Assembly (NCBI GenBank): GCA_016125285.1
Contig: WGMA01000048.1
Location: 1-64,000, forward strand
Direction of reading: 5' to 3'
From: Phycisphaera sp.
GTDB taxonomy: Bacteria > Planctomycetota > Phycisphaerae > Phycisphaerales > Zrk34
DNA: 64,000 nt
The position numbers and the translations under genes are program-made. The notes beneath the pieces were generated by a model that was given only the letters and a program-made list of their open reading frames with translations, did not search any database and was not told the DNA's origin. This document shows positions 23,818 to 55,762 of the stretch, one piece after another. How positions within the stretch are numbered: the first letter of the stretch is position 1; each line of letters begins with the position of its first letter.

Positions 23818-23893
<76 letters not shown>

Positions 23894-28833: not shown

Positions 28834-28905
28834 TTCAGTATTGGTATCAGACTACACCAACGAGCGTGCGCATTGCGATCGTCTTGCCTAACGCCTTGTG
28901 TTACG

Positions 28906-29206: not shown

Positions 29207-29253
29207 TTTTTTCGGCCGCCGCCTGCCTTCCGTGAAGGCGGCGGCCGAAAAAA
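29207..29253. promoter_or_regulatory. Perfect 18-bp inverted repeat before the ParB-like gene
   Basis: TTTTTTCGGCCGCCGCCT (29207-29224) and its exact complement (29236-29253) are separated by 11 bases. The A run is on the 3' side in either direction, so it does not have terminator polarity. Its position 63 bases before the ParB-like start suggests an operator or partition-type binding site, or an mRNA structure. Confidence 0.55.
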
Positions 29254-29315
29254 TGCTTGGCCGGTGTGGGCCGGGGCGGTCGCCGTGTGTCTGTTTCTCC
29301 TTTGGAGGTGTTGTG

Positions 29316-30518: not shown

Positions 30519-30721
30519 TTCACGTCGAACTCAAGACCGGCCGCATCTACCGCGTGACGCTGGGCGACTGGCTCAACATCGACCGCTACAGCCACGAAGT
30601 GCCCGTCCGATCCATCAGCGGCCGGCGCGTGGCCGACCTGCCCGACTGCTTCAATCCTTACGACCGCCCCCGCATCACACGCAAGGAGGTCTACTACGTC
30701 CACCTCGAACCGCCGCGGTGA
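30482..30721 (+). CDS. Small hypothetical protein (79 aa)
   Basis: 79 residues, probably a small beta-rich protein (LIHVELKTGRIYRVTLGDWL, VPVRSISGRRVADLP, ITRKEVYYVHLEP). It overlaps the end of the ParB-like gene by 37 bases, so it may begin later or be translationally coupled. Family not recognised. Confidence 0.5.
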   Translation: MGRGPQLPADALIHVELKTGRIYRVTLGDWLNIDRYSHEVPVRSISGRRVADLPDCFNPYDRPRITRKEVYYVHLEPPR

Positions 30722-30866
30722 GTCCGCTTCATCCAACAACCCACACGAGGCCGACCGGTCACACGGTCGGCTTCATTCTTGCGCATGCGGATCGCAACGT
30801 GCCGCGCCGCCATCGGCTTTACGTTCCTGCAACGGATTCGGCTCATTACTTCTGCGGGTTGAGGCG

Positions 30867-30949
30867 GGCTTCTCCCTCAAGGCGTGGCGGGGTTGTCCCT
30901 CACTTTTGGGGTGAAGGGACAACCCCACCACTTTCAACAAGGAGAAGCC
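30867..30949 (+). promoter_or_regulatory. Long mRNA hairpin that would hide the ardC ribosome site
   Basis: Two nested inverted repeats precede ardC: GGCTTCTCC (30867-30875) with GGAGAAGCC (30941-30949), and GGGGTTGTCCCT (30889-30900) with AGGGACAACCCC (30915-30926). The outer 3' arm contains the GGAG ribosome site of ardC, whose ATG is at 30953. Formation of the outer stem would block translation. A role as a riboregulator is inference from the pairing. Confidence 0.6.
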
Positions 30950-30952
30950 TCG

Positions 30953-31765
30953 ATGAAGACCGCAGACGCGAAGAAGATCGCCGACACCGCCGTGCAGGAA
31001 CTGGCCGAGCAGTTGGCGCAGGGGCGAAGCGAAGCGCTCATCCAGTACCTCGACACGATGGCCCGGTTCCATCACTACAGCTGGCACAACGTGATGATGA
31101 TCCTGTCGCAGCGGCCGGACGCCAGCCGCGTGGCGGGGTTCCGCACCTGGAAGAAGCTCGACCGCTTCGTCAAACGCGGCGAGAAAGGCATCGCGATCTT
31201 CGTGCCGATCCGTGTCAAGGCGACCGACCCGGTGACCGACGAGGAGAAGAAGGTGCTGCGTTTCAAGGTCGGGTACGTGTTCGACATCGCTCAGACCGAA
31301 GGTGAACCACTCGCCGATTACGAAATCGCCCGTTCCAGCGGTGACCCCGGCGAACACCTGGACACGCTCAAGTCCTTCGTGGCCTCTCAGGAGATCGAAC
31401 TGCACTACGCCGGCAACCTCGGCGGCGCCGAAGGCGTATCCAAGGGCGGCCGCATCGACATCCTCGAATCGTTGTCCCCCGCGGAAGAATTCGCAGTCCT
31501 GGCACACGAGATCGCACACGAGATGATGCACCGTGGCGAAGACCGCGCGACGCTGACGAAGACCGTCAAGGAAACCGAAGCCGAAGCCGTGGCCTACGTC
31601 GTGTGCAAAGCCGTCGGGATCGAGTCACCGGGTAGCGCCGACTACGTGCTGATGTACCAGGGCGACGCCGACACGCTTGGCGAATCGCTGGAACGCATCC
31701 AGCGCGCCGCCGCGAGGGTGATGACGGCGATCACCGCGGATCGGGACAACGTCGAGCCACAATGA
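30953..31765 (+). CDS. ardC: ArdC-type antirestriction protein
   Basis: 270 residues. The N-terminal ArdC domain (1-115) has the signature LDTMARFHHYSWHNVMMIL, then FRTWKKLDRFVKRGEKGIAI; it binds single-stranded DNA in studied homologues. The C-terminal metallopeptidase-like domain carries AVLAHEIAHEMMH (HExxH near residue 185) and a downstream Glu-rich helix (ETEAEAVAYVV). ArdC proteins protect incoming plasmid DNA from restriction during conjugation, which fits an integrative element. The ATG at 30953 has AAGGAG upstream, within a potential RNA stem. Confidence 0.9.
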   Translation: MKTADAKKIADTAVQELAEQLAQGRSEALIQYLDTMARFHHYSWHNVMMILSQRPDASRVAGFRTWKKLDRFVKRGEKGIAIFVPIRVKATDPVTDEEKKVLRFKVGYVFDIAQTEGEPLADYEIARSSGDPGEHLDTLKSFVASQEIELHYAGNLGGAEGVSKGGRIDILESLSPAEEFAVLAHEIAHEMMHRGEDRATLTKTVKETEAEAVAYVVCKAVGIESPGSADYVLMYQGDADTLGESLERIQRAAARVMTAITADRDNVEPQ

Positions 31766-32103: not shown

Positions 32104-32237
32104 GGCGATGCTCTGGGCCAGTGCGAGGTCGTTATATCGTATCTGATGGCGTTGAGCGGTTGCCCTTGATCCATCTTGTACATCGCGGTATGACTCCAAG
32201 TCTAGCAGCAATAACAATCACTCGCTGTGGACATGAC

Positions 32238-32819
32238 ATGACGATGCCCATGCGCACCACCGAAAAGCGTCAGATCCCGCGCATCATCCATCAGATATGC
32301 GTGGGAACGCCGGTCCCGGATTCGGTTCGCGAGTGGATGGAAGGTTGGCACGTCATGCATGCGGACTGGGACTATCGATTCTGGACCGACGACAACCTGC
32401 CTCCGCTCATCAACCGACGACAGTATGATGCCACGGCCATTCCTGCACAGAAGGCCGACATTGCGCGTTATGAAATCGTTCACCAGCACTGCGGTGTCTA
32501 TGTCGATGCGGATTATGAATGCCTGAGGCGTATCGACGCCCTGATCGTCAACCGCGAGTATCTTCTCATTCGCGATACGGTCGTCAAACGATTGGTGCAA
32601 AATGGGCGGTTTGCGGCTCCAAGCGGCTCGCAACTAACCAGCCGGTGCGTCGGTGCGGTGGGCAGGCGATTTCGGGTCTCAAAACACCCCAACCGAACCA
32701 CCGGTCCTCACCTGATCACCGCCGTCGCAAACCAGATGCGACTGAGCGTTGAACCGCTGTCGGTACTCAAGACAATTGCGCGCCACTACGCGCTGGCGTC
32801 GTGGCGAAAACCCGGATAA
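32238..32819 (+). CDS. Glycosyltransferase, OCH1-like (DXD sugar-binding family)
   Basis: 193 residues. IPRIIHQICVGTPVPDSVRE is the typical start of the OCH1/Gly_transf_sug family. WDYRFWTDDNLPPLI and ADIARYEIVHQHCGVYVDAD follow, with VDAD as the DXD motif binding the sugar nucleotide and metal. The family transfers mannose or other hexoses onto glycans. The ATG at 32238 has only a weak ribosome site; 32244 and 32250 are alternatives. It is the first gene of the glycan cargo, 18 bases before a sulfotransferase gene. Confidence 0.85.
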   Translation: MTMPMRTTEKRQIPRIIHQICVGTPVPDSVREWMEGWHVMHADWDYRFWTDDNLPPLINRRQYDATAIPAQKADIARYEIVHQHCGVYVDADYECLRRIDALIVNREYLLIRDTVVKRLVQNGRFAAPSGSQLTSRCVGAVGRRFRVSKHPNRTTGPHLITAVANQMRLSVEPLSVLKTIARHYALASWRKPG

Positions 32820-32837: not shown

Positions 32838-33494
32838 ATGAATCCCAAACTGGTCATTGGGATCGGAACCGGTCGCTGCGGCACCCTCAGTCTCGCAACC
32901 CTTCTCAGCGCACAGCTCGATGTTCACGTGGGGCACGAGTCACGCCCGCTGCTGCCGTGGAACCCGAAAGACGCGACGGAGGACATCGTCGCGCGGTTTG
33001 AGACGCTCCAAAAGCGTCACCAACGCGCCCGGCTCGTCGGCGATGTGGCGTTCTACTACCTCAACTACGTGCCGATACTGCTGGAACACTTTCCCGACGT
33101 TAAAGTCGTCTGCCTCAGGCGCTCGCTGGAGGGTACGATCGAAAGTTACGACCGGTGGGTGAGCCAACACCACGGCGACAACGTGGACAACTGGCGGCAG
33201 GACCGACAGGGCCTTCAGTCGAACGAGTGGACGCCGTGCTACCCGAAGTTTCCGGTCTCGAATCGTCGTGACGGCATACGCGCCTACTGGAAGACCTACT
33301 ACCAGACCGTGGAGCAATTGGCTCAAGCGTATCCCGGCGCCATCAGGGTTTTTGAGATGTCGTCTCTCAACCGGGTCAACGATATCCGTCAAATCCTCAA
33401 TTTCGTGGGGATCATCGGTGAGCAGGCGCAGGTCCGGGTGGTTCACATGCACCAATCCGGGCAAGAAACCCCGGCGCGCCAGTCGGGTGAATGA
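32838..33494 (+). CDS. Sulfotransferase
   Basis: 218 residues. VIGIGTGRCGTLSLATLL is the 5'-phosphosulfate loop of PAPS-dependent sulfotransferases, and VVCLRRSLEGTIESY is the 3'-phosphate-binding strand with its Arg and Ser. A catalytic His or Glu is not obvious from reading. The family sulfates carbohydrates or other acceptors in bacteria. An AGGAG site precedes the ATG. It follows the OCH1-like gene directly, which suggests sulfated surface glycans as product. Confidence 0.85.
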   Translation: MNPKLVIGIGTGRCGTLSLATLLSAQLDVHVGHESRPLLPWNPKDATEDIVARFETLQKRHQRARLVGDVAFYYLNYVPILLEHFPDVKVVCLRRSLEGTIESYDRWVSQHHGDNVDNWRQDRQGLQSNEWTPCYPKFPVSNRRDGIRAYWKTYYQTVEQLAQAYPGAIRVFEMSSLNRVNDIRQILNFVGIIGEQAQVRVVHMHQSGQETPARQSGE

Positions 33495-37381: not shown

Positions 37382-38542
37382 TCAGACCCATTCGTGTGTG
37401 GCGATGGCGCTCTTCGGCCGTCGTATCCGGATGGGTACGGCGTGCTGCGAAACGATCCCGACGCCAAGCAGGTACCCGCCGCCGCCCGCACCGGTCATCT
37501 TCGCGCCGAGGCAGCCGCTGGTGACCGATTCAACATCACGCGCAACCTCGCGCGGCATCATCGACGGGAACATCGCCAGCTGCGCCCCAAGCGAGGTGTT
37601 CAGCGCCCGGCCCAAGCGCTGCGCGTCCTTCTTGCAGATCGCCTCCCAGCAGTCATCCGCTGCTTCCGCTAGGCGTCGCGCCGAAGACTTGGTGATGCGG
37701 CGGCCTCGAAGCGGGTCGTAGTCGCGGCTGCGGATTCCCAGCGGGACAAGAGATAACACAGATTCAAGCCATGACAGGGTCGACTCATCGACGATAGAGG
37801 TGATCGACTGCGGCCAGTAGTCACCGCTGTAATCCAGTCGGTTCACGCCGGCAAGCAGCAACCCCAAATGATCCTGTGATCCGCTGACATGCGGGGATAT
37901 GCCGGGAGCGTTATCGCACGCGAACAACACGCGAGCGTTGCGCACCGCGTCGCCGCTCGGCAAGACACCGCCCCACAGGTCGATAGCGGTCTGGCGGCTT
38001 GAGCCGGCCAGCCCCGTGTATTGGGTGAACCGCTCGTCCGCCTCGACCGAGGCGACAACGACGGGACCGGGATGGAGTCTCGATACAAACGGTTGATCGA
38101 GCCAACCGCCGACGATCTCAACCCGGTAGGGAAACGGCATAGCGTCTCGGATCGCCGACGAGCTGATCGCGTCGATCCCTTTACGTGGTGTGCGGCGCAG
38201 GACTTCATACGCCACACCAAGCGACTCGCAGAAACGCCGTTTCTCGGCACGGTCGCCGTCGTCGTTGACAACGAACACATCCGGACGGTTGGCCTTCATT
38301 TCCGGCTCAAAATCCAGCCAGCCCGAACCGCTGCCGATGCAAACATCATGAACCCATCGGATGGCGCCGACCACCTCAGCCCGTTGACGCTCATTGCAGA
38401 CCGGGTACCGCCCCTTGAGGGAGCGGATCGTTTCGTCGGAACCAAGGCACACGTACAGACGGCCGAATTCCGCGGCGCGTCGCAGGAACTCAACGTGGCC
38501 GGCGTGGAACAGATCGAAGCAGCCGCTGACCATGACCTTCAT
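37382..38542 (-). CDS. Cytidylyltransferase-GHMP kinase fusion
   Basis: 386 residues with two enzymes. Residues 1-132 form a TagD/RfaE-type nucleotidyltransferase: VSGCFDLFHAGHVEFLRRA has the HxGH motif (13-16), and the ISSSAIR motif (127-132) is intact. Residues 140-386 form a GHMP sugar kinase: RVEIVGGWLDQPFVSRLHPG, the phosphate loop TGLAGSSRQTA (176-185), and the C-terminal MTGAGGGGYLLG (349-360). Together they could phosphorylate a sugar and activate it as an NDP-sugar, analogous to HldE, whose kinase is instead a PfkB type. AGGA lies upstream of the ATG at 38542; a start at 38572 is possible. Confidence 0.82.
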   Translation of the reverse strand: MKVMVSGCFDLFHAGHVEFLRRAAEFGRLYVCLGSDETIRSLKGRYPVCNERQRAEVVGAIRWVHDVCIGSGSGWLDFEPEMKANRPDVFVVNDDGDRAEKRRFCESLGVAYEVLRRTPRKGIDAISSSAIRDAMPFPYRVEIVGGWLDQPFVSRLHPGPVVVASVEADERFTQYTGLAGSSRQTAIDLWGGVLPSGDAVRNARVLFACDNAPGISPHVSGSQDHLGLLLAGVNRLDYSGDYWPQSITSIVDESTLSWLESVLSLVPLGIRSRDYDPLRGRRITKSSARRLAEAADDCWEAICKKDAQRLGRALNTSLGAQLAMFPSMMPREVARDVESVTSGCLGAKMTGAGGGGYLLGVGIVSQHAVPIRIRRPKSAIATHEWV

Positions 38543-38779
38543 CACGTCGTCCTGCGCACCTGAAACATCCAATGCGACACCCCTCGTGTTCCCGCATCAC
38601 CCATTCGCATGATCGGTTGGTCGAGTGGGTGCGTCAAGCGTAGCTTTTCGTTGGAATCACGTTCTCATCGCCCGGCTTTCGTCGGCGCGAGATGGAAAAG
38701 ACTTGCCCATTGTCGCGCACCGCCGGTATGATCCGCGTCGTCGCCACATGTAGTCGGGTCATGCGAAAGGGGCCGGGTC

Positions 38780-41777: not shown

Positions 41778-41879
41778 ATGCCGGTCTCGCCGGTGAGGCC
41801 GCAGTGGAGTTCGGTCCTCAGCACGTAACGCCTGACGCAATTGTGAATCGATGGAGAGGAATCGACGCGCGGGGTGAAC

Positions 41880-42605
41880 ATGACATCCGTTGGCTCACTG
41901 ACATGGAATGACGTCGTCTGGTGGCGCAACGACTTCGACAACGTCGGGGACGGCCCGCTCAATGATTATCTGATGCCTCGTCTGTTTCCCATGCTCAGTG
42001 CCGACACCGGCAACCCCCGCGCCGTGTTTATGGGGATCGGGAGCATCCTCGGATTCCGGCGCAGCCATCTTCCGCGTGCCTGGCAGGAGTTGCCGTGGAT
42101 CATCTTCGGCAGCGGCTATCAGTACGGCAGGCTCACCGTGCCGCCGCGCAGTTGCGCGTTCGCGTTACGCGGCGCGCAGACCGCACGCCTCCTGCCGCAT
42201 CTCGACCCCATCGCATTAGCCGACCCCGCCATCCTATTGCCCCTGCACTTGCCACGCGACGTGGAGTCGCGCCCGGGTCGCACGGGTGTGGTCGTCCGAT
42301 ATGACTGGCGTGGTCACCGCAGCCATGACGTATTTGACACGCGGACAGGCGGCGATTTTGTTGGATGGATGCGGAAGCTCTGGGGCTACGAACGGATCGT
42401 GACCGACTCCTTCCACGCCGCCGTTTTTGCCGACGCCTATGGCATCCCGTGGGTCCCGATGCGATGGGAGTTGAAGTGGGCGGATCATTTCGCAACAGAT
42501 GCCCCGAGGGAGTTCACGCTGACCGATCGGCGACGCCTGGCCACCATGCAGGAAGAGTTGATCCGCGCCGCCGCGGCGCTGAACAGTGCGCTGTCGGATC
42601 GGTAG
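41880..42605 (+). CDS. Polysaccharide pyruvyl transferase family protein
   Basis: 241 residues. DNVGDGPLNDYLMPRLFP is the characteristic N-VGD-L start. GIGSILGFRRSHLPRAW, IIFGSGYQYGRLTVPP, FALRGAQTARLLPHLDP, the DPAILLP motif and YERIVTDSFHAAVFADAYGI complete the CsaB-like order. The family transfers pyruvate from phosphoenolpyruvate to sugars in capsule and S-layer polymers. At 241 residues it is shorter than CsaB-type enzymes (about 350). The ATG at 41880 is preceded by GGGGTG; GTG at 41874 is an alternative. Confidence 0.85.
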   Translation: MTSVGSLTWNDVVWWRNDFDNVGDGPLNDYLMPRLFPMLSADTGNPRAVFMGIGSILGFRRSHLPRAWQELPWIIFGSGYQYGRLTVPPRSCAFALRGAQTARLLPHLDPIALADPAILLPLHLPRDVESRPGRTGVVVRYDWRGHRSHDVFDTRTGGDFVGWMRKLWGYERIVTDSFHAAVFADAYGIPWVPMRWELKWADHFATDAPREFTLTDRRRLATMQEELIRAAAALNSALSDR

Positions 42606-42623: not shown

Positions 42624-43358
42624 TTATCGCTGGAACAATTCCCACAATGTCTTAAGCCGCCATTTCTCCTTGCCGTTGGCGTGGAACACACAGGGGCTGG
42701 TCTTGGTCAAGTGGTTGAACGGCCGCTTGCCCCATTCAATGTCGTGGTTGAGGACCCACCGCCAGTCCAACCCGCCAAGGCACTGGAAGATGTCACACCC
42801 GTAATCGACCTCAATCGATCCGGGCTGTTCCATGAACAGGTGAAAGAACGCGGCTTGGTCGCACTGCTTGATGCCTCGCCCCTTCTCTTGATAACCGTTG
42901 TCTTCCGTCTCGATCAGCGCTTCGAGGCGCGAGGTGAACGCGTCCCATGTCGCCATGTACCCGCCGCTGTTGGGATAGCGGAAGCGGTTCGGCACATTTT
43001 TCGGCACCGGACACGCATCGCCGTACTTCTTCGTCCACGGCCAGCAGAAGTGCTCGCCGCTGATGAGGAAGGGGTGGCCGAGCTTCTCGAACTTGGTGTG
43101 AATCTCACCGAGACCCGTGGCAAACAGGCAATCGACGCCATCGACCAGCAGGACATAGTCGTAATCTGTGGCGTCCTTCAATTCAGCGTAGACACGTTCG
43201 ACCTTGGACGTGAAATACCCTTGCCATTTCTCGCCGACGCCGATCGGCGTGACCTCGATGCCATGGTATGCCGCCGACTCCATGAACCACCGGGCGGTCT
43301 GCGGCGGCTTGCCGGCATAGAACATCGGTGTGATGACGAGTGTGTTCTTGAAGTTCAT
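42624..43358 (-). CDS. PLOD-like glycosyltransferase
   Basis: 244 residues. LVITPMFYAGKPPQTARWFM and YDYVLLVDGVDCLFATGLGE contain a DGVD metal/sugar site, and FRYPNSGGYMATWDAFTSRL follows. This is the order seen in the glycosyltransferase domain of procollagen lysyl hydroxylase/glucosyltransferase-type proteins and their bacterial homologues. The acceptor is unknown. It converges on the pyruvyltransferase gene (18-base gap). The ATG at 43358 was chosen because the upstream in-frame codons encode low-complexity Arg/Thr-rich sequence. Confidence 0.75.
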   Translation of the reverse strand: MNFKNTLVITPMFYAGKPPQTARWFMESAAYHGIEVTPIGVGEKWQGYFTSKVERVYAELKDATDYDYVLLVDGVDCLFATGLGEIHTKFEKLGHPFLISGEHFCWPWTKKYGDACPVPKNVPNRFRYPNSGGYMATWDAFTSRLEALIETEDNGYQEKGRGIKQCDQAAFFHLFMEQPGSIEVDYGCDIFQCLGGLDWRWVLNHDIEWGKRPFNHLTKTSPCVFHANGKEKWRLKTLWELFQR

Positions 43359-43461
43359 GGTTGCTCTCTCGACTCGACTGACCCGCTGAGTTCCGGTTCC
43401 GCCATCGTTTCGCCGATTCGTCGTACGACCATGCTTTTCGCTGAGACGCACACGGGGCGCA

Positions 43462-43800
43462 TCAGTCATCCGTATCTCCGGAGTGATCGGAGTTTCCGGG
43501 GGTTCCGGGGGAGGCCGGTCTGCCGAACAGCGTTACCCAGAACAGCGCTGGCGTCGCCAGTGCGTTGAACCAGACCCAGTGCTGTTCACACAGCCGCCAG
43601 AACAAGGGAGACAACAGCATCCCGGCCCAGAAGCTGAAGCAGATGTAGCAATCCAGAGCCCCCGCCGCGGAAGCAGGCAGCATGCGGCGCAGCACGCGCT
43701 CGCGTAGCCACGCCGTCGGGCCGTTCTGCGGCCAGACGATAAGCACCGTCAGGCCGACGGTCGAAAGCAGCATCGTGACCAACCAAGCGAGTTCGGACAT
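43462..43800 (-). CDS. Small membrane protein, DUF1360-like
   Basis: 112 residues. An N-terminal span (LAWLVTMLLSTVGLTVLIVW), then a motif LDCYICFSFWAGMLLSPLFW with a C-Y-I-C pair in a membrane segment, resembles DUF1360 proteins of spores and phages. A third span and a Gly/Asp-rich tail follow. Family assignment is tentative. Confidence 0.55.
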   Translation of the reverse strand: MSELAWLVTMLLSTVGLTVLIVWPQNGPTAWLRERVLRRMLPASAAGALDCYICFSFWAGMLLSPLFWRLCEQHWVWFNALATPALFWVTLFGRPASPGTPGNSDHSGDTDD

Positions 43801-43946: not shown

Positions 43947-46556
43947 ATGGGGAACCCGACATTCGTCATCCACGCTTCGCAGCCGCTGGTGATGGTCCGT
44001 CCGTTGCTCAGCGCGCTTGAATCGATCGGCGTGTCACATCGCCGCGCCTCCTATGACGTTGCGGAGATGATGACGCCCGACGAGGTGCATGTCGTGTGGG
44101 GCATGAACTACCGCCCCCGGAAATACCGTGCGCTGGCTCAGCACCCCAACATCTACTTCCTGGAAAACGGCTGGTTTGTTCAGCGGACGGGCTGCTACCT
44201 CGACAAGTCGGGGCCCAACGGACTCAGTTCGATCCGTGGTGCGGCGACAGCCTTGTCGCTCGATCAGGAAGACGAAGATCTTGTGGACAACTTCATCGAG
44301 GACCTGCACCGCCGCGTCCGACTCAATCCTGCGACCGACCTCGGCGAATACATCTTCGTGCCGTTGCAGGTCGAATCGGATACCCAACTGCTGTTTTGGT
44401 CGAAGTGCGCCGCACGCCATCCCAACCGCCAGGTGTGGCTCCTCGACCGCATCTGCGAGGCGTTTCCCGATCATCGCATCGTGCTTAAGGCCCACCCCCG
44501 TGATGAGTCAACAGCCGAGCGAATCCTTCGCGAGTCGGTCGGCGTGCGTAACCATCGCGATGTTCACTTCGTCAGCCGTCGCTCGACCTACGACCTGGTT
44601 GCCGCCGCTCGCTGCGTCGTGGGGATCAACTCCACGGTGCTGCTGGAGGCGTTGACCTGCTACAAGCCAGTGTGCGCCATGGGCGAAGGGGTGTTCAGCC
44701 GCAACGGCGTGGTGCTGGAGTGCAACGGTGATCCGGCCGTCCTGAATGAGGCCCTGTCCTATCAGTGCGACCGCTCCGCCGCGAGAAAGTTCCTGCGTTT
44801 GCTTATCGAACGGCAGATCCCGTACCACCTCAAACCCGACGAAATCAACAGATATCCGGTTCTGTCGAGCGCGATCGATCGGGCGTTGCACATCGCGGGC
44901 GGACGTCATCTCAAGCGAACGGGGGTTTCGTCGTCACAATCGGCTGCCAGGCCCTCGTCGTCCAACGCAAATCCCAAGGTTGCAATGCGTGACATTTTTG
45001 ATCGAGTCGTCTGCGTGAACCTCGCGCACCGTCCGGACCGCTGGGAATCTTTCCGCCAGCAGATCGACCAGATTGACTGGCCGTTCCGAGAGGTCGAGCG
45101 GGTCGAGGCCGTCGATGGTCGCAAGGAGACCGTGCCCGGGTGGTGGCGGGCCAACGCCGGCGCGTGGGGCTGCTACCGCAGTCACCTCCGCATCCTCAAG
45201 CAGGCCATCGAAGACGGTGTCGATTCGGTCCTCATCTTCGAGGACGACGCGGTCTTTGCGCCGGACTTCGCCGAGAGATGCCGCGAGTTCCTCGACGCAT
45301 TGCCGCCGGACTGGGACATGATCTACCTCGGCGGTGAACACAGTCATGTACGCCGCCGTCCACCAACCCGGATCAACGCCTTCGTGATGCGTCCTTACTA
45401 CGCAACACGGACCCATGCGTTCGCCGTGCGCGGACCGTTCATCAAGTTCCTCCATGACTATCTGGAAGCAGCCCCAAAGCAGAAGTGGCGAAAACGGCAT
45501 CACGTCGACCAGCAGATGGCTCGGCTCCACCGCATGTGGAAGCACAAGGTGTATTGCCCCAACAGGTGGATCGTCGCCCAGTCCGCCGGCTACAGCGACA
45601 TCACACGGACCCGTCGGGGACGGCCGACCTTTTGGAACCACCGCCACAGCGGGGCCTCTCAGCCGATTCATAAAGCCGCACTGGTTTCGGATCGTCCCGT
45701 CACCGCAGCGGTAATGGGCATGTACCGCGGCGGCACTAGTTGCACCGCAGGCATCCTGTGGCACCTCGGGGCGTGCATGGGCGTCAATCTTCGGGGCCGC
45801 GACGCCAAAAACAGCCGAGGCTACTTCGAGCCACTCTGGCTATCCAATCAGTTAAGGGGACTGATCCGTGAGCGGACCCTTGAAGCGAGTTTCGTCGAGG
45901 ACGAGCGTGTGGAAGTTTTGACCAAGTGGTTGTCGGATGTGCGGTCGTTCGTGAAGTCAGACCGGGTCGTGATCGGAGCGAAGCACCCGCTGCTGTCCGT
46001 CATGGGTCCCGAACTCGATCGCGCCTGGGGGCACTCGCTTCACGTGATCGCGGTCGACCGGGACTTGGACGACATCATTGAATCCCTGCGGCGGTCGGGC
46101 TTCCCGTGGGTCCAGCATGTCGCAGATTGTCGGTCCTACGTCGAGCGATTCATGTCTATTCGGGATGCGTATTTGGAAGGCCGTGACCACCTGCGGCTGC
46201 GTTACGAAGAACTGCTGCGGGATCCTCGGCGGCAGGTCGAGCGAATCATCGATTACCTGGGCTGCACGCCCACCGCTCAGCAAGTGGAGCAAGCGGTCGC
46301 ATTCGTCCAGCCCTCGCTCAATCACGGCAGCACGGTCGATGCGGCCGACCTCGATATTGCAGGAGCAATTGCGATGGGACAGCGGCAAGACGTCAAGGAT
46401 CAGCGGGCCGGGGGCGGCCAATCAAACCGCGACCGATTGGACGGCAAGCCCACCAACGGACGCCGCCGAGAACTGCTGGTTCGCGACCGCTTGCTCGGCA
46501 GAAAACCTGTTGATGACGGCTGCGGCGGTTGCCGCGGTCGATCGCTGGCGGGATAG
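43947..46556 (+). CDS. Three-domain fusion: capsule-synthesis-like, GT25 and sulfotransferase
   Basis: About 869 residues. The N-terminal domain (1-310) resembles KpsS/capsule-polysaccharide synthesis proteins: GEYIFVPLQVESDTQLLFWS, DHRIVLKAHPRDESTAERIL and VVGINSTVLLEALTCYKPV. A Ser-rich linker leads to a GT25 glycosyltransferase (about 346-580: RVVCVNLAHRPDRWESFRQ, GCYRSHLRILKQAIEDGV, VLIFEDDAVFAPDF). A sulfotransferase-like domain follows (586-800: VMGMYRGGTSCTAGILWHLG). The last 60 residues are Arg/Gly-rich. It may start, extend and sulfate one glycan. The ATG at 43947 follows GGGGGG; 43935 and TTG 43908 are alternatives. Confidence 0.8.
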   Translation: MGNPTFVIHASQPLVMVRPLLSALESIGVSHRRASYDVAEMMTPDEVHVVWGMNYRPRKYRALAQHPNIYFLENGWFVQRTGCYLDKSGPNGLSSIRGAATALSLDQEDEDLVDNFIEDLHRRVRLNPATDLGEYIFVPLQVESDTQLLFWSKCAARHPNRQVWLLDRICEAFPDHRIVLKAHPRDESTAERILRESVGVRNHRDVHFVSRRSTYDLVAAARCVVGINSTVLLEALTCYKPVCAMGEGVFSRNGVVLECNGDPAVLNEALSYQCDRSAARKFLRLLIERQIPYHLKPDEINRYPVLSSAIDRALHIAGGRHLKRTGVSSSQSAARPSSSNANPKVAMRDIFDRVVCVNLAHRPDRWESFRQQIDQIDWPFREVERVEAVDGRKETVPGWWRANAGAWGCYRSHLRILKQAIEDGVDSVLIFEDDAVFAPDFAERCREFLDALPPDWDMIYLGGEHSHVRRRPPTRINAFVMRPYYATRTHAFAVRGPFIKFLHDYLEAAPKQKWRKRHHVDQQMARLHRMWKHKVYCPNRWIVAQSAGYSDITRTRRGRPTFWNHRHSGASQPIHKAALVSDRPVTAAVMGMYRGGTSCTAGILWHLGACMGVNLRGRDAKNSRGYFEPLWLSNQLRGLIRERTLEASFVEDERVEVLTKWLSDVRSFVKSDRVVIGAKHPLLSVMGPELDRAWGHSLHVIAVDRDLDDIIESLRRSGFPWVQHVADCRSYVERFMSIRDAYLEGRDHLRLRYEELLRDPRRQVERIIDYLGCTPTAQQVEQAVAFVQPSLNHGSTVDAADLDIAGAIAMGQRQDVKDQRAGGGQSNRDRLDGKPTNGRRRELLVRDRLLGRKPVDDGCGGCRGRSLAG

Positions 46557-46739: not shown

Positions 46740-47738
46740 ATGCTGACGCTCAACGATTACAAAGGCCTGCGAGTCCCGGTACCGGATCCCCCCGACCGCG
46801 GGGGGGATGCGATCAAGCGGGACCTGATGGCGATGGCGGACCGCGCCGGACCGGTGAACGCCACGGCGGCCAATCCTTCGCCCAACGACGACAGCAACGG
46901 CACGGCCGGCAACGGCAAGTTCTACGTCTGGTCGAAGTGGGTCAATACCGCCACCAACGCGATCTTCATCTGCGTCGACGCCACACCGCAGGCGGCCGTC
47001 TGGATCAATGTTACCGCGGGCGGTGGTGGCGGAGGGTTGCCACCAGGCTACATCAACCGCCTGCTGCTGGGCTACGTCTCGGCAAGCACTGCGGAGATCT
47101 CGGCGGGCAACTGCCGGGACTCGGCCAACGGCTTCGACATCACCCTGGCCAGTGCTGCCACGGTGGACATCACCATCAGCGGCGCCGGTGGCCTGGACAC
47201 GGGTTCCGAAGCGCCGAACACGTGGTACGCCGTGTTCGTCATCGCCGACTCGACGAACACGAACCCGCCCGTGGGTCTGTTGTCGACCAACGCAACGTCA
47301 CCAACGATGCCGGCGGGCTACGACGTGTTTAGACGCGTGGGCTGGATCCGCAATAACAGCAGCTCTGACTTCTACAAGTGGTATCAGACGGGTTCAGGCG
47401 AGCTGAGGATCATGCGATGGAACGAGAGCATGGTCAGCCCGCCCACGCTCCAGGTGCTGTCCGGCGGCGCGGCGCAGACGCTGACCGACGTGAACGTGTC
47501 GCAGTTCGTGCCGCCGACCAGCGAGCGTTCGACGCTGCACCTGGAGAACGAGAGCAAGCGTGAGGGGTACGTGCGCCCGAAGAACGGTGCACAGAACTTC
47601 GCGCGTCTGAACGCAGACGCAGACATCATCTACGACGTGCCGGCGCCGGGACAATTGATCGAGTACCGCTACAACTCCGGCGGCGGCCCCGCGGGATTCC
47701 TGAATATCAGCGTGCTGGGCTACTACGACCAGCTGTGA
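46740..47738 (+). CDS. Tail-fibre-like beta-rich protein
   Basis: 332 residues. LTLNDYKGLRVPVPDPPDRG, FYVWSKWVNTATNAIFICVD and a Gly-rich turn are followed by Ser/Thr/Asn-rich repeats (ASAATVDITISGAGG, NSSSDFYKWYQTGSGELRI). The C-terminal part VLGYYDQL resembles phage tail-fibre or baseplate ends. No signal peptide. It is immediately upstream of the RHS gene (34-base gap), so they may be co-expressed. The tail-fibre assignment rests on composition and pattern, not on a firm family match. Confidence 0.5.
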   Translation: MLTLNDYKGLRVPVPDPPDRGGDAIKRDLMAMADRAGPVNATAANPSPNDDSNGTAGNGKFYVWSKWVNTATNAIFICVDATPQAAVWINVTAGGGGGGLPPGYINRLLLGYVSASTAEISAGNCRDSANGFDITLASAATVDITISGAGGLDTGSEAPNTWYAVFVIADSTNTNPPVGLLSTNATSPTMPAGYDVFRRVGWIRNNSSSDFYKWYQTGSGELRIMRWNESMVSPPTLQVLSGGAAQTLTDVNVSQFVPPTSERSTLHLENESKREGYVRPKNGAQNFARLNADADIIYDVPAPGQLIEYRYNSGGGPAGFLNISVLGYYDQL

Positions 47739-47772: not shown

Positions 47773-50700
47773 ATGCCCAGCCCTTCACCGTCACCGGACC
47801 CGAGCCCATCACCGAGCGTCAACCCGTCGCCGAGCGCAAATCCATCGCCCAGCGTCAATCCGTCGCCGAGCGGCAATCCGTCGCCGAGTGTCAATCCGTC
47901 GCCGAGCGTCAACCCATCGCCGAGCGTCAATCCGTCGCCCAGCGTCAATCCGTCGCCGAGCGTCAACCCATCGCCCAGCGTCAATCCGTCGCCGAGCGTC
48001 AACCCATCGCCCAGCGTCAATCCGTCGCCGAGCGTCAATCCGTCGCCGAGTGTCAACCCATCGCCCAGCGTCAATCCGTCGCCGAGCGTCAACCCATCGC
48101 CCAGCGTCAATCCGTCGCCGAGCGTCAATCCGTCGCCGAGTGTCAATCCGTCGCCCAGCGTCAACCCGTCGCCGAGCGCCAATCCGTCGCCGAGCGTCAA
48201 CCCGTCGCCCAGCGTCAACCCATCGCCCAGCGTCAACCCGTCGCCCAGCGTCAACCCGTCGCCCAGCGTCAACCCGTCGCCGAGCGTCAACCCGTCACCG
48301 AGTGTCAATCCGTCGCCCAGCGGCAATCCGTCGCCGAGTGTCAACCCGTCGCCCAGCGTCTCGCCATCAGTGTCGCCGAGCCCGAGCGTCAGCCCTAGTC
48401 CGTCACCCAGCCCATCACCATCAGCGAGCCCTTCGCCGTCGCCTAGTCCCTCACCCGGTCCGGGAGGCGACTGCCCATCAACGCTGTGCGACTGTCCGGC
48501 CTGTGGCTGCAGCGCAGCCGAGGAGGCAGTGGACGACAACTGCTGCGACGGAACGTACTCCGGCGACGCTAAGTGCAGCGCCGGCACACTGCTGAGCTCG
48601 GGCCAGTTCTCGTTCAAGACGTGCCTGGCCTCGATCAGTTCCCTAGGCGGCATCCAATGGGGCTTCGGCCTGGACTTCCTGTCTGACAACGGGATTGACG
48701 GGGCGCTGGGCAAGTCCTTCAACTTCACGCAGAACATCCACTTCGAGGAGATGGCCAACGGCGACGCGGTGCTGATCAGCGGCGACAACACCCACGAGAT
48801 GTTCGCCGATACAGGCAGCGGCACGTACTCATCATCGGACAACAACACCCGCGCCGTCCTCGAACGCACCGGCAGCGGCGTCAATGAGGAACTGACCCTG
48901 CTGTCCTCGTCGGGCAACACATCGCGATTCTACGGCTTCGACCCGGCCATCGACACGCCTGGGGTGATCAAGAGTGTAACCGACCGCTACGGCAACACGC
49001 AGACATACACGTGGACCACCCAGGGGGGCGTTGCCCAACTGGCGAGCATCACCGACTCCTACGGCCGAACCGTCGAATACCGCTACTACGGCGCGGCCCA
49101 GGGCTTCCGCCTGCGCGAGATCGAGGACTTCCTCGAACGCAAGCTCAACTTCCAGTACGACGACTTCGATCACCTCGTGGCGGTGGTCACGCCGTCGATC
49201 CTGCGTGCCGCGCCCGGCAACACGTTCCCCGGCGGCACGGCGTACGTGTTCGAATATGACGTGAACAACCCCAACCCGGCGCGTCGCGACGACCTGATCC
49301 GCATCTACTACCCCAACCAGGCCACGCCGTACATCGACATCGAGACCCGCACCGTCGATGTGGACGCGGTGTACGCCAACGCCACGCCGCGTTACAACGT
49401 GACGTACAACGCCGCGGGTCAGGTGGTCAGCGAGACCGTCGGCGACCCGGCCGATGACGTCGGCGGCACGTACCAGTACAGCTACCAGACGTCGGGGTTG
49501 CCCGCGAACCTCATCGACCCGACCGATTCGATCGTCTCCCGGGCTAACGTCACCGACCGCAACGGCAACAAGCGGGTGTACGACTTTAACGTCCTTGGCC
49601 AGCCTGTTCGCTTCGAAATCCAGGCTAACCGCGACAAGAACAGCCTGCAGACCGGCCCGTACGTTACGTGGACGAAGTACAATACGCACAGCCAGCCCCT
49701 GCTGGTGGTGATGCCCGAAGGCGACAGCGTCGAGTACGAATACGAGGACGGCAACGTCGCCGGCATCGGTGAGTACGCCAAGCGGATCGGCCTGCTGATC
49801 CGCGAGACGCACAAGCCCGGCAACCCCATCGGCATCCCCTCGCGCCCCGGCTCCAGCGGCCAGACGGAACTGACGCGCCGCTACTTCTACGACCCGATCT
49901 ACAACCAGCAGGTGGCGGTGATCGAACGCCGCGGCAACCCGATCGACGCGCCCAGCACGTACTTCCAGCCGCAGAACGGCGGAACCACACCCACGGACGC
50001 CGACCGCAGCCGGTACGCCACCTTTACGTTCTTCGACTACCAGAAGAACACCACCTCCACGATCATCAACGACGCGGCCCTCCAGCAGGACCTGGGGCTC
50101 AACGCCACGCAGATCCAGGCGCTGATCGACCACGTCAATGATCAGATGATCGCCGAGGGCCTGCCCTCGGGGTTCGAGACGGACCTTGGCGACATCAACG
50201 GCGACGGCACGGGCGACGGCGCGGCGTCGGGTCTGCCGGCGGCGAAGATGATCGGCAACATCGTCAAGGTCCAGCACCCGTCCGTGCGTCTGATCGGCTC
50301 ATCCACGATCACCACGCAGGTCAGAGAAGAGCTGTTCACCAACAACGACCGCGGGCAGACGACCACGCACACCGATCCCGAGGGCAACCTGACGGTAATG
50401 CTGCGGTACCCCGAGAGCGACCCGGAAGGCAACGGGCAGTTCACCTCCATCGGCGCCAGCAACAAGCAGTACGGTCGGGTGAAGGAAGTGCACGTCGATG
50501 CCAACCCCGATCACGTGATGACCCTCGTCGGCGAGGACGGCGACCTGGAGGACTTCATCCCGGGTCTGATCACCCGCACCAACACGCCGGGCGTGTACCA
50601 GGACCTGACCACACGCCACGAGGGAAGCACGGTCGGAGCCGGAGGTGGCTGCGCCAGCTGCGCCTACGACCCGCTGGGCAACCCTCTGGCGATGACCGAT

Positions 50701-53700
50701 CCGCGCGGGTTCACCACTCATTCTGAACGCAACGAGCTGGGCACGGTGTTCCGCACGATCTCCCCGGCACCGTACGAGTACAAGGTCGAGACGCACTACG
50801 ACGCCAACCGCAACGTGACGCGCGTGGACACCGAAGACCAGATCGTCAGGTACGACTCCGATGACCCGACATCGGCGGGGTACGCGCACTTCACGCCGAC
50901 CGGCAGCGGATCGACGGCGCACGTGCCGATGAATCCGGGTCCCGGCGGCAGTGTGCGACCAGGCTGGTTCACCAACCTCTACGAGTACGACATCCTCGAC
51001 AACAAGATCGAGGACGACATCGACGCCACCGGCTCGACGCCATCGAGCCTGATCACGCAGTACGAGTACGACGCGAACCAGAACCTGATCAAGACCACCA
51101 AACCCGAGGGTAACACCGTCGAGTACGACTACGACGAGCGGAACCTGCAGATCGCTACGCGTGTGGGCTACGACGCGAACCTCGGCGAGCCGGGAGCTGT
51201 GACCATCAGCGCGTACGACAAGAACAGCAACCTGATCCAGATGATCGGTGCGTCGGCGCGAGGCGGTGTGGGCAATCAGCTGACCGCCACCATCGACGAC
51301 GCCTTCGGATCGGGCAACCCGCTGGTCCACACAGGCGACTACGTCTTGGAGAACATCTACGACGGGTTCGATCGTGTAATTCAATCAATCGACGCTGTCG
51401 GTAACGTTGTGCTCAGCAGTCATGATCCCAACAACCGCACCATCGAAGTGATCCGCCAGGGCCCGATCGGCGGCCCCACACCCACGGATCGCATCGGTGC
51501 GGCCAACGTCGACCTGGCCGGCGGCGAGACGCGCTTCGACGAGGCAGGACGCAGCTACGAGTCGCAGAACAATGTGTTCGTGGCCTCGGGCACGACGATC
51601 CCCTCGGGCCGCGACGTGACGCACACGGGTGGCGGCTTGGAAGCCAACTCCACGTCCAACGGACACACCGCTACCGAGACGCTCGTCCTCGGCGGCGTGG
51701 CTCAAGCCAACAGCTCCTACACGCTTACACGAACGGTCTACGACAGGGCCAGTCGAGTCGTGGAGTACGTCGCGGACAACACCGGCGTCACCACCAACGA
51801 ATACGACGGCGCCAGCCGCGCGATCCGCACTGTTGATGCGTTGCAGGCTGTAGGCCTAGAGAACATTACTAAGTATAAGTACGACGCCAACGACAATACC
51901 ATTGCTGCGGTTCAAACTGAACGCTGCACGATCACGCAGCCTACCGTCCCGGATGAGACGTTTCGCATGACGATGCGATATGACTCATTGGACCGCCAAG
52001 TCGTTAGTGCAAAACAAGGGGCGGACGGGGTACTGGACCATAATCTTAATGAGTGCTGTACGTGGCCGATCTGCACAGAAGCATTGATATATCTCGCGGG
52101 TTACGATAGTCGGAGTAACGCAACAGTGACGATTGATCCGAGGGCTAACACAGAAATCAACCTCTACGATGGAGCCAATCGCCTCACACAGATTCTAGAT
52201 CACGTGCGCCAAGACGGTCAAGGCTCCAATCCACCGGCGGCGAACCAGACGTTCCTGCCGTACGGCGGCGCGACGATCCGCACAACCACCAATTACGACA
52301 CCAACAGCCGCGTCGTCCAGTTGATCGACGACAACGGCGGCGTGACCACCTACGCCTACGACACGCTGGACCGCCAAGTCGTCATGGAGTTCCACGACGG
52401 TTCGCAGCGCGTCAACGTGTACAACGATGCGTCAGACGTCACACAGCACACCGACGAGAACGGTTCGGTGTTCAACAACACCTTCGACTCACTGGGCCGC
52501 AGGACCGACGTGGCCATCACACCGGCCGCAGGGGTCGTGGGCACCGACGCCCAGTCGTTCGAGTACGACGGGCTGTCGCGCTACACCAAGGCTGTCGACT
52601 CAATCGGCGTGACCAACGCGACGGTGCAGATGTTCTACGACTCGGCCAGCCGGGCTATCGAGGACTCGCAGACCTACCTGGGCAACACACGCAACGTGAC
52701 CAACGACGCGTTCGAGTCGTACCCGGTCACGGAGGTGACGTTCCCCAATGGTCGCCAGACAGCCAATACCTATGACCTGCTGTACCGGCGCACGGACGTG
52801 GCCGAGTCGGGTGGCTCGTCGATCGCCTCATGGCAGTTCTTCGGCCCATCACGCGCCGTAGAGACGGTCTTGGTCAACGGGCTGATCTGCACCGCCATGA
52901 ACAACGCCCGCAATCGCTCGGCGGTTCAGGAAGGTCTGCCCAGTCCCGACTGGGGCGACCGGTCGTCAGACCGCCTGGGCTACGACGGCGCCGGCCGGAT
53001 GATCACCAAGCGGTACCTGGCGGGCGGGATCAACGACTCGACCTTCGCCTACAACAACACGACCGCGATCGTGGGCCAGACCACCGAGTACGACCTGTCG
53101 TCCAACAAGCTGTTCGAGCGGCAGATGCACGCCGAGAGCCGCAGCAGCCTCTACGAGCCGTACGGGTCGAACGGGGCGCCGCAGGGCGGCTATGATTCCT
53201 TGGACCGGCTCCGCCAGTACCAGCGCGGCGTGCTGGACTCGACCGGTGGTCGGCTCGGCCAGGGAGGCGGCAGCATCGTGACGTCAATCACATTGCCCAA
53301 CACCGACTCGTTCCGAGGGTACGACCTGGACGGTCTGGGCAACTGGAAGAACACCACGTTCACGCCGGCCGGCGGCAACCTCACCAACGAGGTCCGTCAA
53401 CACAACAAGCTCAACCAGATCACCGAGACAGACGACGGCACGCCGATCGACTTCAACTACGACGGAACCACCGGGGAGTCCAACGGCAATCTCGCAGACG
53501 ACGGCGTGCGGCTCTGCGAGTGGGACGCGCTGAATCGCCTCAAGGTCGTCAGGCGCAAGTCCGACGGCATGACCATCGGCGAGTCACGTATGATGCCCGC
53601 AGTCGCCGCATCCGCAAGGTCGTCTCCAACGGCGGGTTGTCTGGGACGCTTGCCAACGGGGCCACCAACTACATCTACTCAGGGACCCAGTGCTGTGAGG

Positions 53701-53844
53701 AGCGCGACGGCTCGGATACGCCTCAGGTGCAGTATGTATGGGGTCGCTACATCGACGAGATGCTCCAGCAGCGGGTCGATGTCAGCGGCGCGCCGGAGGA
53801 TCGGTACCTGCTGTCAGATACGCTGTACCGCTCGGTCGCGATGA
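47773..53844 (+). CDS. Giant RHS-repeat protein, main part, frameshifted at its 3' end
   Basis: Residues 1-16 are Pro/Ser-rich, then thirty NPSP-S-(V/A/G) hexapeptides (17-196), then a Cys-rich stretch (GGDCPSTLCDCPACGCSAAE). About 1,650 residues of RHS/YD repeats follow (ITDSYGRTVEYRYYGA, TTQYEYDANQNL-type units, TNYDTNSRVVQLIDDNGG). RHS repeats build a hollow shell around a C-terminal toxin. The frame is correct to about 53583; beyond that the last 87 residues are nonsense, and the real RHS core continues one base back in the next entry. GAGGT precedes the ATG. Part of an island polymorphic-toxin locus. Confidence 0.85.
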   Translation: MPSPSPSPDPSPSPSVNPSPSANPSPSVNPSPSGNPSPSVNPSPSVNPSPSVNPSPSVNPSPSVNPSPSVNPSPSVNPSPSVNPSPSVNPSPSVNPSPSVNPSPSVNPSPSVNPSPSVNPSPSVNPSPSVNPSPSANPSPSVNPSPSVNPSPSVNPSPSVNPSPSVNPSPSVNPSPSVNPSPSGNPSPSVNPSPSVSPSVSPSPSVSPSPSPSPSPSASPSPSPSPSPGPGGDCPSTLCDCPACGCSAAEEAVDDNCCDGTYSGDAKCSAGTLLSSGQFSFKTCLASISSLGGIQWGFGLDFLSDNGIDGALGKSFNFTQNIHFEEMANGDAVLISGDNTHEMFADTGSGTYSSSDNNTRAVLERTGSGVNEELTLLSSSGNTSRFYGFDPAIDTPGVIKSVTDRYGNTQTYTWTTQGGVAQLASITDSYGRTVEYRYYGAAQGFRLREIEDFLERKLNFQYDDFDHLVAVVTPSILRAAPGNTFPGGTAYVFEYDVNNPNPARRDDLIRIYYPNQATPYIDIETRTVDVDAVYANATPRYNVTYNAAGQVVSETVGDPADDVGGTYQYSYQTSGLPANLIDPTDSIVSRANVTDRNGNKRVYDFNVLGQPVRFEIQANRDKNSLQTGPYVTWTKYNTHSQPLLVVMPEGDSVEYEYEDGNVAGIGEYAKRIGLLIRETHKPGNPIGIPSRPGSSGQTELTRRYFYDPIYNQQVAVIERRGNPIDAPSTYFQPQNGGTTPTDADRSRYATFTFFDYQKNTTSTIINDAALQQDLGLNATQIQALIDHVNDQMIAEGLPSGFETDLGDINGDGTGDGAASGLPAAKMIGNIVKVQHPSVRLIGSSTITTQVREELFTNNDRGQTTTHTDPEGNLTVMLRYPESDPEGNGQFTSIGASNKQYGRVKEVHVDANPDHVMTLVGEDGDLEDFIPGLITRTNTPGVYQDLTTRHEGSTVGAGGGCASCAYDPLGNPLAMTDPRGFTTHSERNELGTVFRTISPAPYEYKVETHYDANRNVTRVDTEDQIVRYDSDDPTSAGYAHFTPTGSGSTAHVPMNPGPGGSVRPGWFTNLYEYDILDNKIEDDIDATGSTPSSLITQYEYDANQNLIKTTKPEGNTVEYDYDERNLQIATRVGYDANLGEPGAVTISAYDKNSNLIQMIGASARGGVGNQLTATIDDAFGSGNPLVHTGDYVLENIYDGFDRVIQSIDAVGNVVLSSHDPNNRTIEVIRQGPIGGPTPTDRIGAANVDLAGGETRFDEAGRSYESQNNVFVASGTTIPSGRDVTHTGGGLEANSTSNGHTATETLVLGGVAQANSSYTLTRTVYDRASRVVEYVADNTGVTTNEYDGASRAIRTVDALQAVGLENITKYKYDANDNTIAAVQTERCTITQPTVPDETFRMTMRYDSLDRQVVSAKQGADGVLDHNLNECCTWPICTEALIYLAGYDSRSNATVTIDPRANTEINLYDGANRLTQILDHVRQDGQGSNPPAANQTFLPYGGATIRTTTNYDTNSRVVQLIDDNGGVTTYAYDTLDRQVVMEFHDGSQRVNVYNDASDVTQHTDENGSVFNNTFDSLGRRTDVAITPAAGVVGTDAQSFEYDGLSRYTKAVDSIGVTNATVQMFYDSASRAIEDSQTYLGNTRNVTNDAFESYPVTEVTFPNGRQTANTYDLLYRRTDVAESGGSSIASWQFFGPSRAVETVLVNGLICTAMNNARNRSAVQEGLPSPDWGDRSSDRLGYDGAGRMITKRYLAGGINDSTFAYNNTTAIVGQTTEYDLSSNKLFERQMHAESRSSLYEPYGSNGAPQGGYDSLDRLRQYQRGVLDSTGGRLGQGGGSIVTSITLPNTDSFRGYDLDGLGNWKNTTFTPAGGNLTNEVRQHNKLNQITETDDGTPIDFNYDGTTGESNGNLADDGVRLCEWDALNRLKVVRRKSDGMTIGESRMMPAVAASARSSPTAGCLGRLPTGPPTTSTQGPSAVRSATARIRLRCSMYGVATSTRCSSSGSMSAARRRIGTCCQIRCTARSR
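47821..48360 (+). repeat. Thirty consecutive 18-bp repeats (NPSPSV) in the RHS gene
   Basis: 540 bases contain exactly thirty 18-bp units of the type aatccgtcgccgagcgtc, coding for NPSPSV with V, A or G as the last residue. Units differ only at third positions (aat/aac, ccg/cca, gag/cag) and at the final codon. Such near-identical tandem units expand and contract by slippage. The stretch probably forms a long extended spacer. Confidence 0.95.
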
Positions 53845-54872
53845 CCGACGACACCGGCGCTATCGTAGAGGCGTACGACACCGACGCCTACGGCAACACG
53901 CTGGTCTTCGACGCCGCGGGCACGGGTGGCGAATGGTTCGCAGACGATGTCACGCAAACGCCGGCGCCGACCAACGACTACATCTTCACCGGGCGAAGGT
54001 ACGACCCCGAGACCGAGATCTACTTCTACAGGTCGCGATACTACGTGCCGAAACAAGGGCGATTCATCTCAAGAGACTCCTTTGACTATCGAGATGGCAT
54101 GAATCTGTATTTCTACGTGAGCGATTCACCAACAGTATTTGTCGATCCTGGCGGAACAGCCAAGCAGTTTACGTTTAAGGCTGACTGGGAACCTCTGTAC
54201 CATCGCCCATGGAAGCTTGAAGGAGTCACCGTCCAACAGGTTCCTTTGGGCAAACTAGAGTGGTCATTTGATTTTGAGTGTGATCAAACTAAAGATAAGA
54301 AGCCGCTTCTCAAATGGAAAGATGGTGCCGAACAATTCTCTGGGACACCATACTTCACTGCATCGACAGCAGAGAATATCGCGGAAAGATATTCTCCAAT
54401 GTTCGCTGCTGAAGAAGTTCGAATATTTGATCAAGACATTCGCGTTCGACCAATCGGTGATGACAGGGCATGTGTGGCAGTTACATACAAAGGTGAGATT
54501 GCGCTCATGCTCAAGGTAAGGTCTCCAGCGCCAATTAAGGGCGTCGGATCAATTGATCAGAAAGATTTTCGAGGTTCAATATCACTTCGAAGAGTCGCAA
54601 TGGTCTGCTGTTGCTGCAGGGGCGACGAGATAGATTGGTCCAGTGTGCCAACGGGCAAGAGAGGCGCTCCTCTCACTGGCCAAAATGTGAAATATGGAAG
54701 GCAGCCAAATCAACACGGCTATTTCCTGGCAACGCCCGATAGGGCAACATACGGACAGTGTGGGGAGACGAAGAAGTTCCTTGAGACATTTCTTATCACT
54801 ACAACGAAGAGTGGGAGCCGAAAGCCTGCGCCGAATCCTGCTGTGCCTCCATTCTATGACGAGCCCCAGTAA
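53583..54872 (+). CDS. RHS core and C-terminal tip, continuing after a one-base shift
   Basis: Reads VTYDARSRRIRKVVSNGG and continues the RHS repeats. The RHS core signature is complete: YDPETEIYFYRSRYYVPKQG, RFISRDSFDYRDGMNLYFYV and SPTVFVDPGG. After DPGG (about 54150) about 240 residues form a variable C-terminal tip with MVCCCCRGDEIDW; I recognise no toxin family. From about 54060 base composition becomes AT-rich, as in exchangeable RHS tips. The shift lies at gag/tcacg (53581-53590): re-reading one g restores the frame, so a one-base deletion or sequencing error is likely. Confidence 0.8.
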   Translation, partial: VTYDARSRRIRKVVSNGGLSGTLANGATNYIYSGTQCCEERDGSDTPQVQYVWGRYIDEMLQQRVDVSGAPEDRYLLSDTLYRSVAMTDDTGAIVEAYDTDAYGNTLVFDAAGTGGEWFADDVTQTPAPTNDYIFTGRRYDPETEIYFYRSRYYVPKQGRFISRDSFDYRDGMNLYFYVSDSPTVFVDPGGTAKQFTFKADWEPLYHRPWKLEGVTVQQVPLGKLEWSFDFECDQTKDKKPLLKWKDGAEQFSGTPYFTASTAENIAERYSPMFAAEEVRIFDQDIRVRPIGDDRACVAVTYKGEIALMLKVRSPAPIKGVGSIDQKDFRGSISLRRVAMVCCCCRGDEIDWSSVPTGKRGAPLTGQNVKYGRQPNQHGYFLATPDRATYGQCGETKKFLETFLITTTKSGSRKPAPNPAVPPFYDEPQ

Positions 54873-55715: not shown

Positions 55716-55762
55716 GCTTCCCAAGCTGAATGTCGAGGGTTCGAGCCCCTTCACCCGCTTTG
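55716..55762 (+). repeat. attR, right 47-bp direct repeat
   Basis: Exact copy of 23847-23893 comprising the anticodon-arm to 3' end portion of tRNA-Gly plus three bases. No acceptor 5' half precedes it, so it is a fragment and not a second tRNA gene. It marks the right end of the island. Confidence 0.95.

Follow-up and report, generated by a model that had tools for sequence, protein, structure and literature searches.

A Capsule_synth–GT25–sulfotransferase fusion on a planctomycete integrative element and the serine-rich neighbours of its relatives

Two of the closest known counterparts of the system examined here concern protein glycosylation. Dedicated glycosyltransferases such as SdgA/SdgB serve the Ser-rich or SD-repeat surface glycoproteins of Gram-positive bacteria (PMC3794999), and phage-encoded glycosyltransferases are suggested to modify the virion proteins of mycobacteriophages (PMC11256854). 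We analysed a 64,000-nucleotide stretch of planctomycete DNA (the window), in which one gene encodes a fusion of a Capsule_synth domain, a family 25 glycosyltransferase (GT25) and a sulfotransferase (ST). The resemblance to SdgA/SdgB is an analogy only: a writer gene adjoins the gene of a Ser-rich repeat protein that is its candidate acceptor, but the glycosyltransferase families differ, the ST is in the same chain and the proteins proposed as acceptors belong to phage tails or are RHS proteins. With the mycobacteriophages the system shares glycosyltransferases encoded by phage and virion proteins as proposed targets; in contrast, planctomycete prophages pair a GT25-ST fusion with poly-Ser tail proteins, and sulfation is added. 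Open-licence PMC text yielded no description of a GT25-sulfotransferase fusion or of Ser-rich phage-tail glycosylation. Each domain is already known, whereas the three-domain order and the recurrent pairing of GT25-ST with poly-Ser proteins were not found in the literature searched; of these two results, we consider the pairing the more important.

The fusion gene and its three predicted catalytic domains

The fusion is encoded by a frame that has no in-frame stop until codon 870 and that is already open from a TTG at 43908, upstream of the start given here. Its features are as follows.

43947–46556, +, three-domain fusion CDS, 869 aa (ORF, Pfam, codon-position GC)
43947–44906, +, predicted Capsule_synth / beta-Kdo-transferase-type GT-B domain, aa ~1–320 (Pfam, phage relatives, Foldseek)
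44367–44381, +, QVESD, matching the QXXXD nucleophile motif, aa 141–145 (Q and D invariant in aligned relatives)
44493–44498, +, HP motif, aa 183–184 (invariant in aligned relatives)
44907–44996, +, short Ser-containing linker (translation, codon pattern)
44997–45671, +, GT25 domain (Pfam; Foldseek COLGALT1 and R655; tree)
45240–45248, +, GT25 EDD motif (invariant in 20 aligned rows)
45702–46346, +, sulfotransferase domain (Pfam; Foldseek tyrosylprotein sulfotransferases)
45708–45758, +, sulfotransferase 5′ phosphate loop, AVMGMYRGGTSCTAGIL (alignment of relatives)
46347–46556, +, C-terminal extension and stop codon (no counterpart among relatives)

From N- to C-terminus, Pfam finds Capsule_synth (residues 130–257, 2e-13), Glyco_transf_25 (356–461, 2.8e-9), Sulfotransfer_3 (664–773, 1e-6) and Sulfotransfer_1 (744–784, 4e-5), and all four scores exceed the curated cut-offs. 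Codon-position GC is of the coding type in nearly all 50-codon blocks, both domain junctions included, and is weakest at the linker and around residues 551–600, while the two alternative frames are packed with stops. A preliminary description of this DNA had claimed one chain with three enzyme domains and had named a frameshift artefact as one of the things that would undo the claim. Such an origin is unlikely because the other frames are filled with stops and the two-domain GT25-ST half stands independently in many genomes; the coding codon pattern argues against it as well. The fusion is a real single-chain protein with three predicted catalytic domains. The other elements described there are also in place: a Ser-rich linker, though a short one (~residues 328–345), a GT25 domain with an intact EDD and a sulfotransferase whose phosphate loop contains GGTS. 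The last ~70 residues (~800–869), unmatched among relatives, may have been added through loss of a stop codon.

Because a joint 32-row alignment put the N-domain homologues in the wrong place, the N-domain and the GT25-ST part were modelled separately. The N-domain scores 50.9 bits against PF05159 (curated cut-off 20), and Q141, D145, H183 and P184 are invariant in the alignment with its relatives; QXXXD and HP motifs are signatures of retaining beta-Kdo transferases (PMC10148158). Its structural model, built from five sequences, has a pLDDT of 76, and its best Foldseek match is KpsC (6mgd, E 1e-8), with a moderate TM of 0.53/0.60. The family match, the motifs and a predicted GT-B fold like that of KpsC suggest a retaining beta-Kdo-transferase-type domain, with Kdo as the donor that the motifs would predict. 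In these respects it resembles KpsC/KpsS (GT107) and WbbB (GT99). Unlike them, it is joined to a GT25 and an ST, its nearest relatives are phage proteins and a lipid-capsule context was not found; nor is it a KpsS by the NCBIfam equivalog model, which gives 21.4 bits against a cut-off of 600. The host genome contains no second PF05159 match at E<=1e-5, the fusion's own being the sole one, so that at this threshold it lacks the combination of KpsC and KpsS that group-2 capsule priming calls for. The nearest relatives (37–41% identity) are free-standing proteins in two viral contigs, in both of which they adjoin terminase- and portal-like genes, named by reading the sequence and not by a family scan; a repeat scan found nothing beyond the same two contigs. 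The score, the host genome and the phage setting of the relatives all count against the earlier proposal that a KpsS-like domain primes the glycan. Of the proposed succession of priming, extension and sulfation, the three domains with intact motifs therefore stand, and the KpsS-type priming is not supported.

The GT25-ST part is predicted by AlphaFold2 as two mostly confident domains with a flexible join (mean pLDDT 85.3, pTM 0.56). Foldseek matches this model to human COLGALT1, mimivirus R655, tyrosylprotein sulfotransferases and many viral GT25 proteins. The EDD is unchanged in 20 aligned relatives, and the ST P-loop (GMYRGGTS in the fusion) and the R...S of the 3′ phosphate site are conserved, a few rows being divergent. 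A PF01755 score above the cut-off, the EDD and the modelled GT25 fold together point to a GT25 enzyme; likewise, Sulfotransfer_3 above the cut-off, the P-loop and the 3′ phosphate R...S predict a PAPS sulfotransferase. The first module thus shares sequence family, EDD and fold with the GT25 enzymes (LPS galactosyltransferases, COLGALT1, R655) but differs from them in being joined to a sulfotransferase and in having Ser-rich neighbour proteins. The second shares the P-loop, 3′ phosphate site and fold of PAPS-dependent sulfotransferases (Sulfotransfer_3/1; the tyrosylprotein sulfotransferase fold), but is here a C-terminal module on a glycosyltransferase chain. A collagen-like acceptor, to which the COLGALT and PLOD matches had pointed, was rejected: the window and paralog loci contain no GXY run of at least 7.

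The integrated element and the GT25-sulfotransferase family

The fusion gene lies within a 31.9-kb element (31,869 bp; GC 0.62 versus 0.67) integrated at a tRNA-Gly gene, with an integrase next to the tRNA and one copy of a direct repeat at either end, as in an integrative element.

23847–23893, +, left 47-bp direct repeat, over the 3′ part of tRNA-Gly (23818–23890)
24005–25270, +, tyrosine integrase, beside tRNA-Gly
32121–32819, +, DXD glycosyltransferase, close to one in the prophage cassette of locus L022 (4e-60)
32838–33494, +, second, stand-alone sulfotransferase
37382–38572, −, nucleotidyltransferase-GHMP kinase fusion, possible sugar activation
41874–42605, +, polysaccharide pyruvyl transferase family gene (Pfam)
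42624–43469, −, PLOD-type glycosyltransferase gene (Pfam)
55716–55762, +, right 47-bp direct repeat, copy of the tRNA-Gly 3′ end

Genes of virion or conjugation type on the element are one VirB8-family and one tail-like gene; among the element genes scanned, which are part of the gene set, there was no terminase, capsid or tape measure. The stretch 26639–31765 holds the VirB8-family gene with DprA-like and PRTase-like neighbours, a ParB-like gene and an ArdC-N gene. Elsewhere, the host genome encodes APS kinases, which supply PAPS, and a CMP-sugar synthetase family gene.

Three GT25-ST paralogs in the host genome are all without the N-domain, and one has a disrupted ST part; in this paralog (L024:6159-8910) the ST half ends where a recombinase-like gene sits on the opposite strand, as though the ST gene had been the site of an element's insertion or of recombination. 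Alignment scans of species genomes and IMG/VR found about 45 loci with a single-chain GT25-ST, and further genome samples added six such chains. Most of the 45 belong to Pirellulales (prophages) or to viral contigs; Rhodopirellula rubra and Rubripirellula obstinata are among the Pirellulales with such a prophage locus. No N-domain was found on any of these, and no second three-domain chain in the plasmids, phages, IMG/VR and planctomycete genomes searched; single-protein query scans of genome-contig and viral-contig collections returned zero relatives. Capsule_synth chains with other partners do exist, with GT2 domains (L257) or with a methyltransferase and a deacetylase (L262). The earlier statement that no protein with the Capsule_synth–GT25–ST order has been described accordingly agrees with these collections, in which the order has no second case, whereas its novelty does not extend to the GT25-ST fusion, which is common. 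The best explanation of the sequences is that a phage-type beta-Kdo-transferase-like GT-B domain joined the front of a GT25-ST enzyme.

Serine-rich neighbours of the GT25-sulfotransferases

The host GT25-ST paralogs close prophage tail operons that contain a major tail protein and a tape measure (PHROGs; L022). The order of genes is tail tube, chaperone-like gene, tape measure, conserved minor tail gene, Ser-rich tail protein and GT25-ST, so that the enzyme directly follows a protein of the tail operon whose long C-terminus is Ser-rich (40–90% serine). Among the 27 planctomycete loci with sufficient upstream DNA, 23 have an ORF that is 81–90% serine over its best 100 aa and ends at most 1.2 kb upstream of GT25-ST; elsewhere in those loci there is a single further Ser-rich ORF in the 317 kb surveyed. 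Within one homologous tail-protein family, a downstream GT25-ST is present for 28/29 Ser-rich members versus 1/32 that are not Ser-rich (P-value 4e-15, which is overstated because the loci share ancestry and are not independent; most of the Ser-rich loci counted were retrieved via the enzyme itself). The sole Ser-rich member without GT25-ST (L196) has GT4 and GT2 genes instead, and at the other exception (L028) the tail protein is not Ser-rich and no ST was detected with the GT25. All three Ser-rich loci that were retrieved only via the minor tail gene and have enough downstream DNA (L196, L214, L224) contain glycosyltransferases. The poly-Ser tracts are encoded by all six Ser codons and therefore appear to be maintained at the protein level.

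The Pirellulales prophage tail proteins of L041:4704-7436, L065:4566-7433 and similar loci contain 320–400 serines in ~900 residues, and both their N-terminal tail domain and their Cys/Trp-rich C-terminal end are conserved. Certain other phages with this type of tail have a tail protein that is not Ser-rich, no GT25-ST and a separate Ser-rich ORF. At L226:10443-12805 and ~30 related viral loci with a non-Ser-rich tail, the downstream gene is often weakly MptE-like (PF01973, E 0.006), and in L226 and similar loci the separate Ser-rich ORF comes after it. PF01973 also covers the Maf flagellin glycosyltransferases, and the MptE-like gene may therefore be a second Ser-glycosylation route. Related prophage loci (L026:11201-13569, L025:8985-10532) carry a pyruvyl transferase and a GT8-GT2-type two-domain glycosyltransferase, so that another kind of glycan cassette lies close to these tail genes.

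In the tree, the GT25-ST part of the fusion clusters with those of L060, L062 and L064 (support 100/97); the related locus L061, in which GT25-ST is split over two ORFs, was left out of the tree. By the search used, the neighbours of this subclade show no homology to the phage tail protein, yet they are Ser-rich: STSSGG repeats in L060, SSW repeats ahead of a weak RHS match in L061, SGSGSW repeats of a planctomycete-extracellular protein that adjoins RHS and dockerin in L062 and a Ser-rich N-terminus in L064. A density of 20 or more Ser per 50 aa is reached within 2.5 kb in 5/5 subclade loci, the window included, versus 5.5% of random anchors. In the window the neighbours are these.

46740–47738, +, tail-fibre-like protein; a homologue precedes GT25-ST in L086
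47773–53844, +, 2023-aa protein with PSPSVN repeats, then RHS repeats; candidate acceptor
47805–48360, +, tandem repeat array coding Ser/Pro repeats
53520–54872, +, RHS-like core continued in a different frame

The candidate acceptor is one gene away from the fusion, with a frame break at its end: the 2023-aa ORF stops at 53844 and the RHS-like core appears to switch to the frame of 53520–54872, either by a real frame break or by an assembly error.

A proposed sulfated O-glycan and its alternatives

We propose, with a probability of roughly 55%, that the Ser-rich repeats of a neighbouring protein receive from the fusion a sulfated O-glycan, which may contain Kdo. The GT25 would link a sugar to serine, the acceptor residue we infer, or extend a sugar already there; the ST would cap the glycan with sulfate from PAPS, and the N-domain would use a CMP donor to add a Kdo-like sugar, with both the order of these steps and an O-linkage being part of the proposal. 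Candidate acceptors would be the poly-Ser tail proteins in prophages, the Ser-rich repeat proteins, often RHS, in the subclade, and, in the window, probably the PSPSVN-repeat RHS protein at 47773. We read the enzyme as a writer beside its acceptor because the GT25-ST family directly follows Ser-rich tail proteins in tail operons, and because Ser-rich neighbours, though non-homologous, recur at all five loci of the window's subclade; the host's APS kinases and CMP-sugar synthetase family gene fit the donors proposed. Against the proposal count the gene that separates the fusion from its candidate acceptor, the frame break in the latter, the phages that have a separate Ser-rich ORF but no GT25-ST, and the moderate fold match of the N-domain. 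A wider scenario is more tentative, albeit quite possible: a phage-spread system in which GT25-ST enzymes put sulfated O-glycans on poly-Ser phage tails and Ser-rich, often RHS, proteins, and in which the window's enzyme, by gaining a beta-Kdo-transferase-type module, became a three-step writer in one chain.

The family names and motifs of Capsule_synth and GT25 (LPS biosynthesis), together with further glycan genes on the element, the pyruvyl transferase among them, would also fit an enzyme of cell-surface polysaccharide (capsule, LPS or exopolysaccharide) synthesis or modification, working by Kdo-type priming, extension and sulfation without releasing the intermediate, along the lines of the earlier proposal. 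We consider this unlikely: the KpsS score is far under its cut-off, the host lacks another Capsule_synth match at the threshold given above, and relatives sit in phage tail operons next to Ser-rich proteins. Less likely still is a 'moron' of the prophage or element that changes the host surface glycan, blocking superinfection or altering phage receptors; PHROGs does class GT25 under moron / host takeover and the gene is carried by an integrated element, but this function leaves unexplained both the tight link with poly-Ser tail proteins and the fact that the neighbours in the window's subclade are Ser-rich but non-phage. We give least credence to the chain having arisen recently by accident and serving no function, or being an assembly chimera, within a decaying element. 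Its order was seen only once in the collections searched, its C-terminal extension is unusual and the RHS gene further downstream is broken in its frame; against this stand 869 open codons with an even coding pattern, intact motifs in each of the three domains and an N-domain that retains the conserved core common to its phage relatives.

If glycosylation and sulfation of a Ser-rich neighbour is indeed the function, these enzymes would be a bacterial and phage counterpart to sulfated proteoglycan assembly, with a single-chain writer beside its acceptor giving phage tails or giant RHS proteins a sulfated, polyanionic coat. It would account for the odd poly-Ser tail proteins in Pirellulales prophages and would offer compact glycosylation-sulfation catalysts. 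The fusion and its neighbour would then form a directly testable enzyme-substrate pair, and the three-domain chain a test of whether a Kdo-type module lengthens the product.

A Spongiibacteraceae MAG contig (L086:1-10566) carries, in order, an RHS gene, a homologue of the 46740 gene, GT25-ST and a second GT25; it is either a neighbourhood of the window's type outside Planctomycetota or a misbinned contig.
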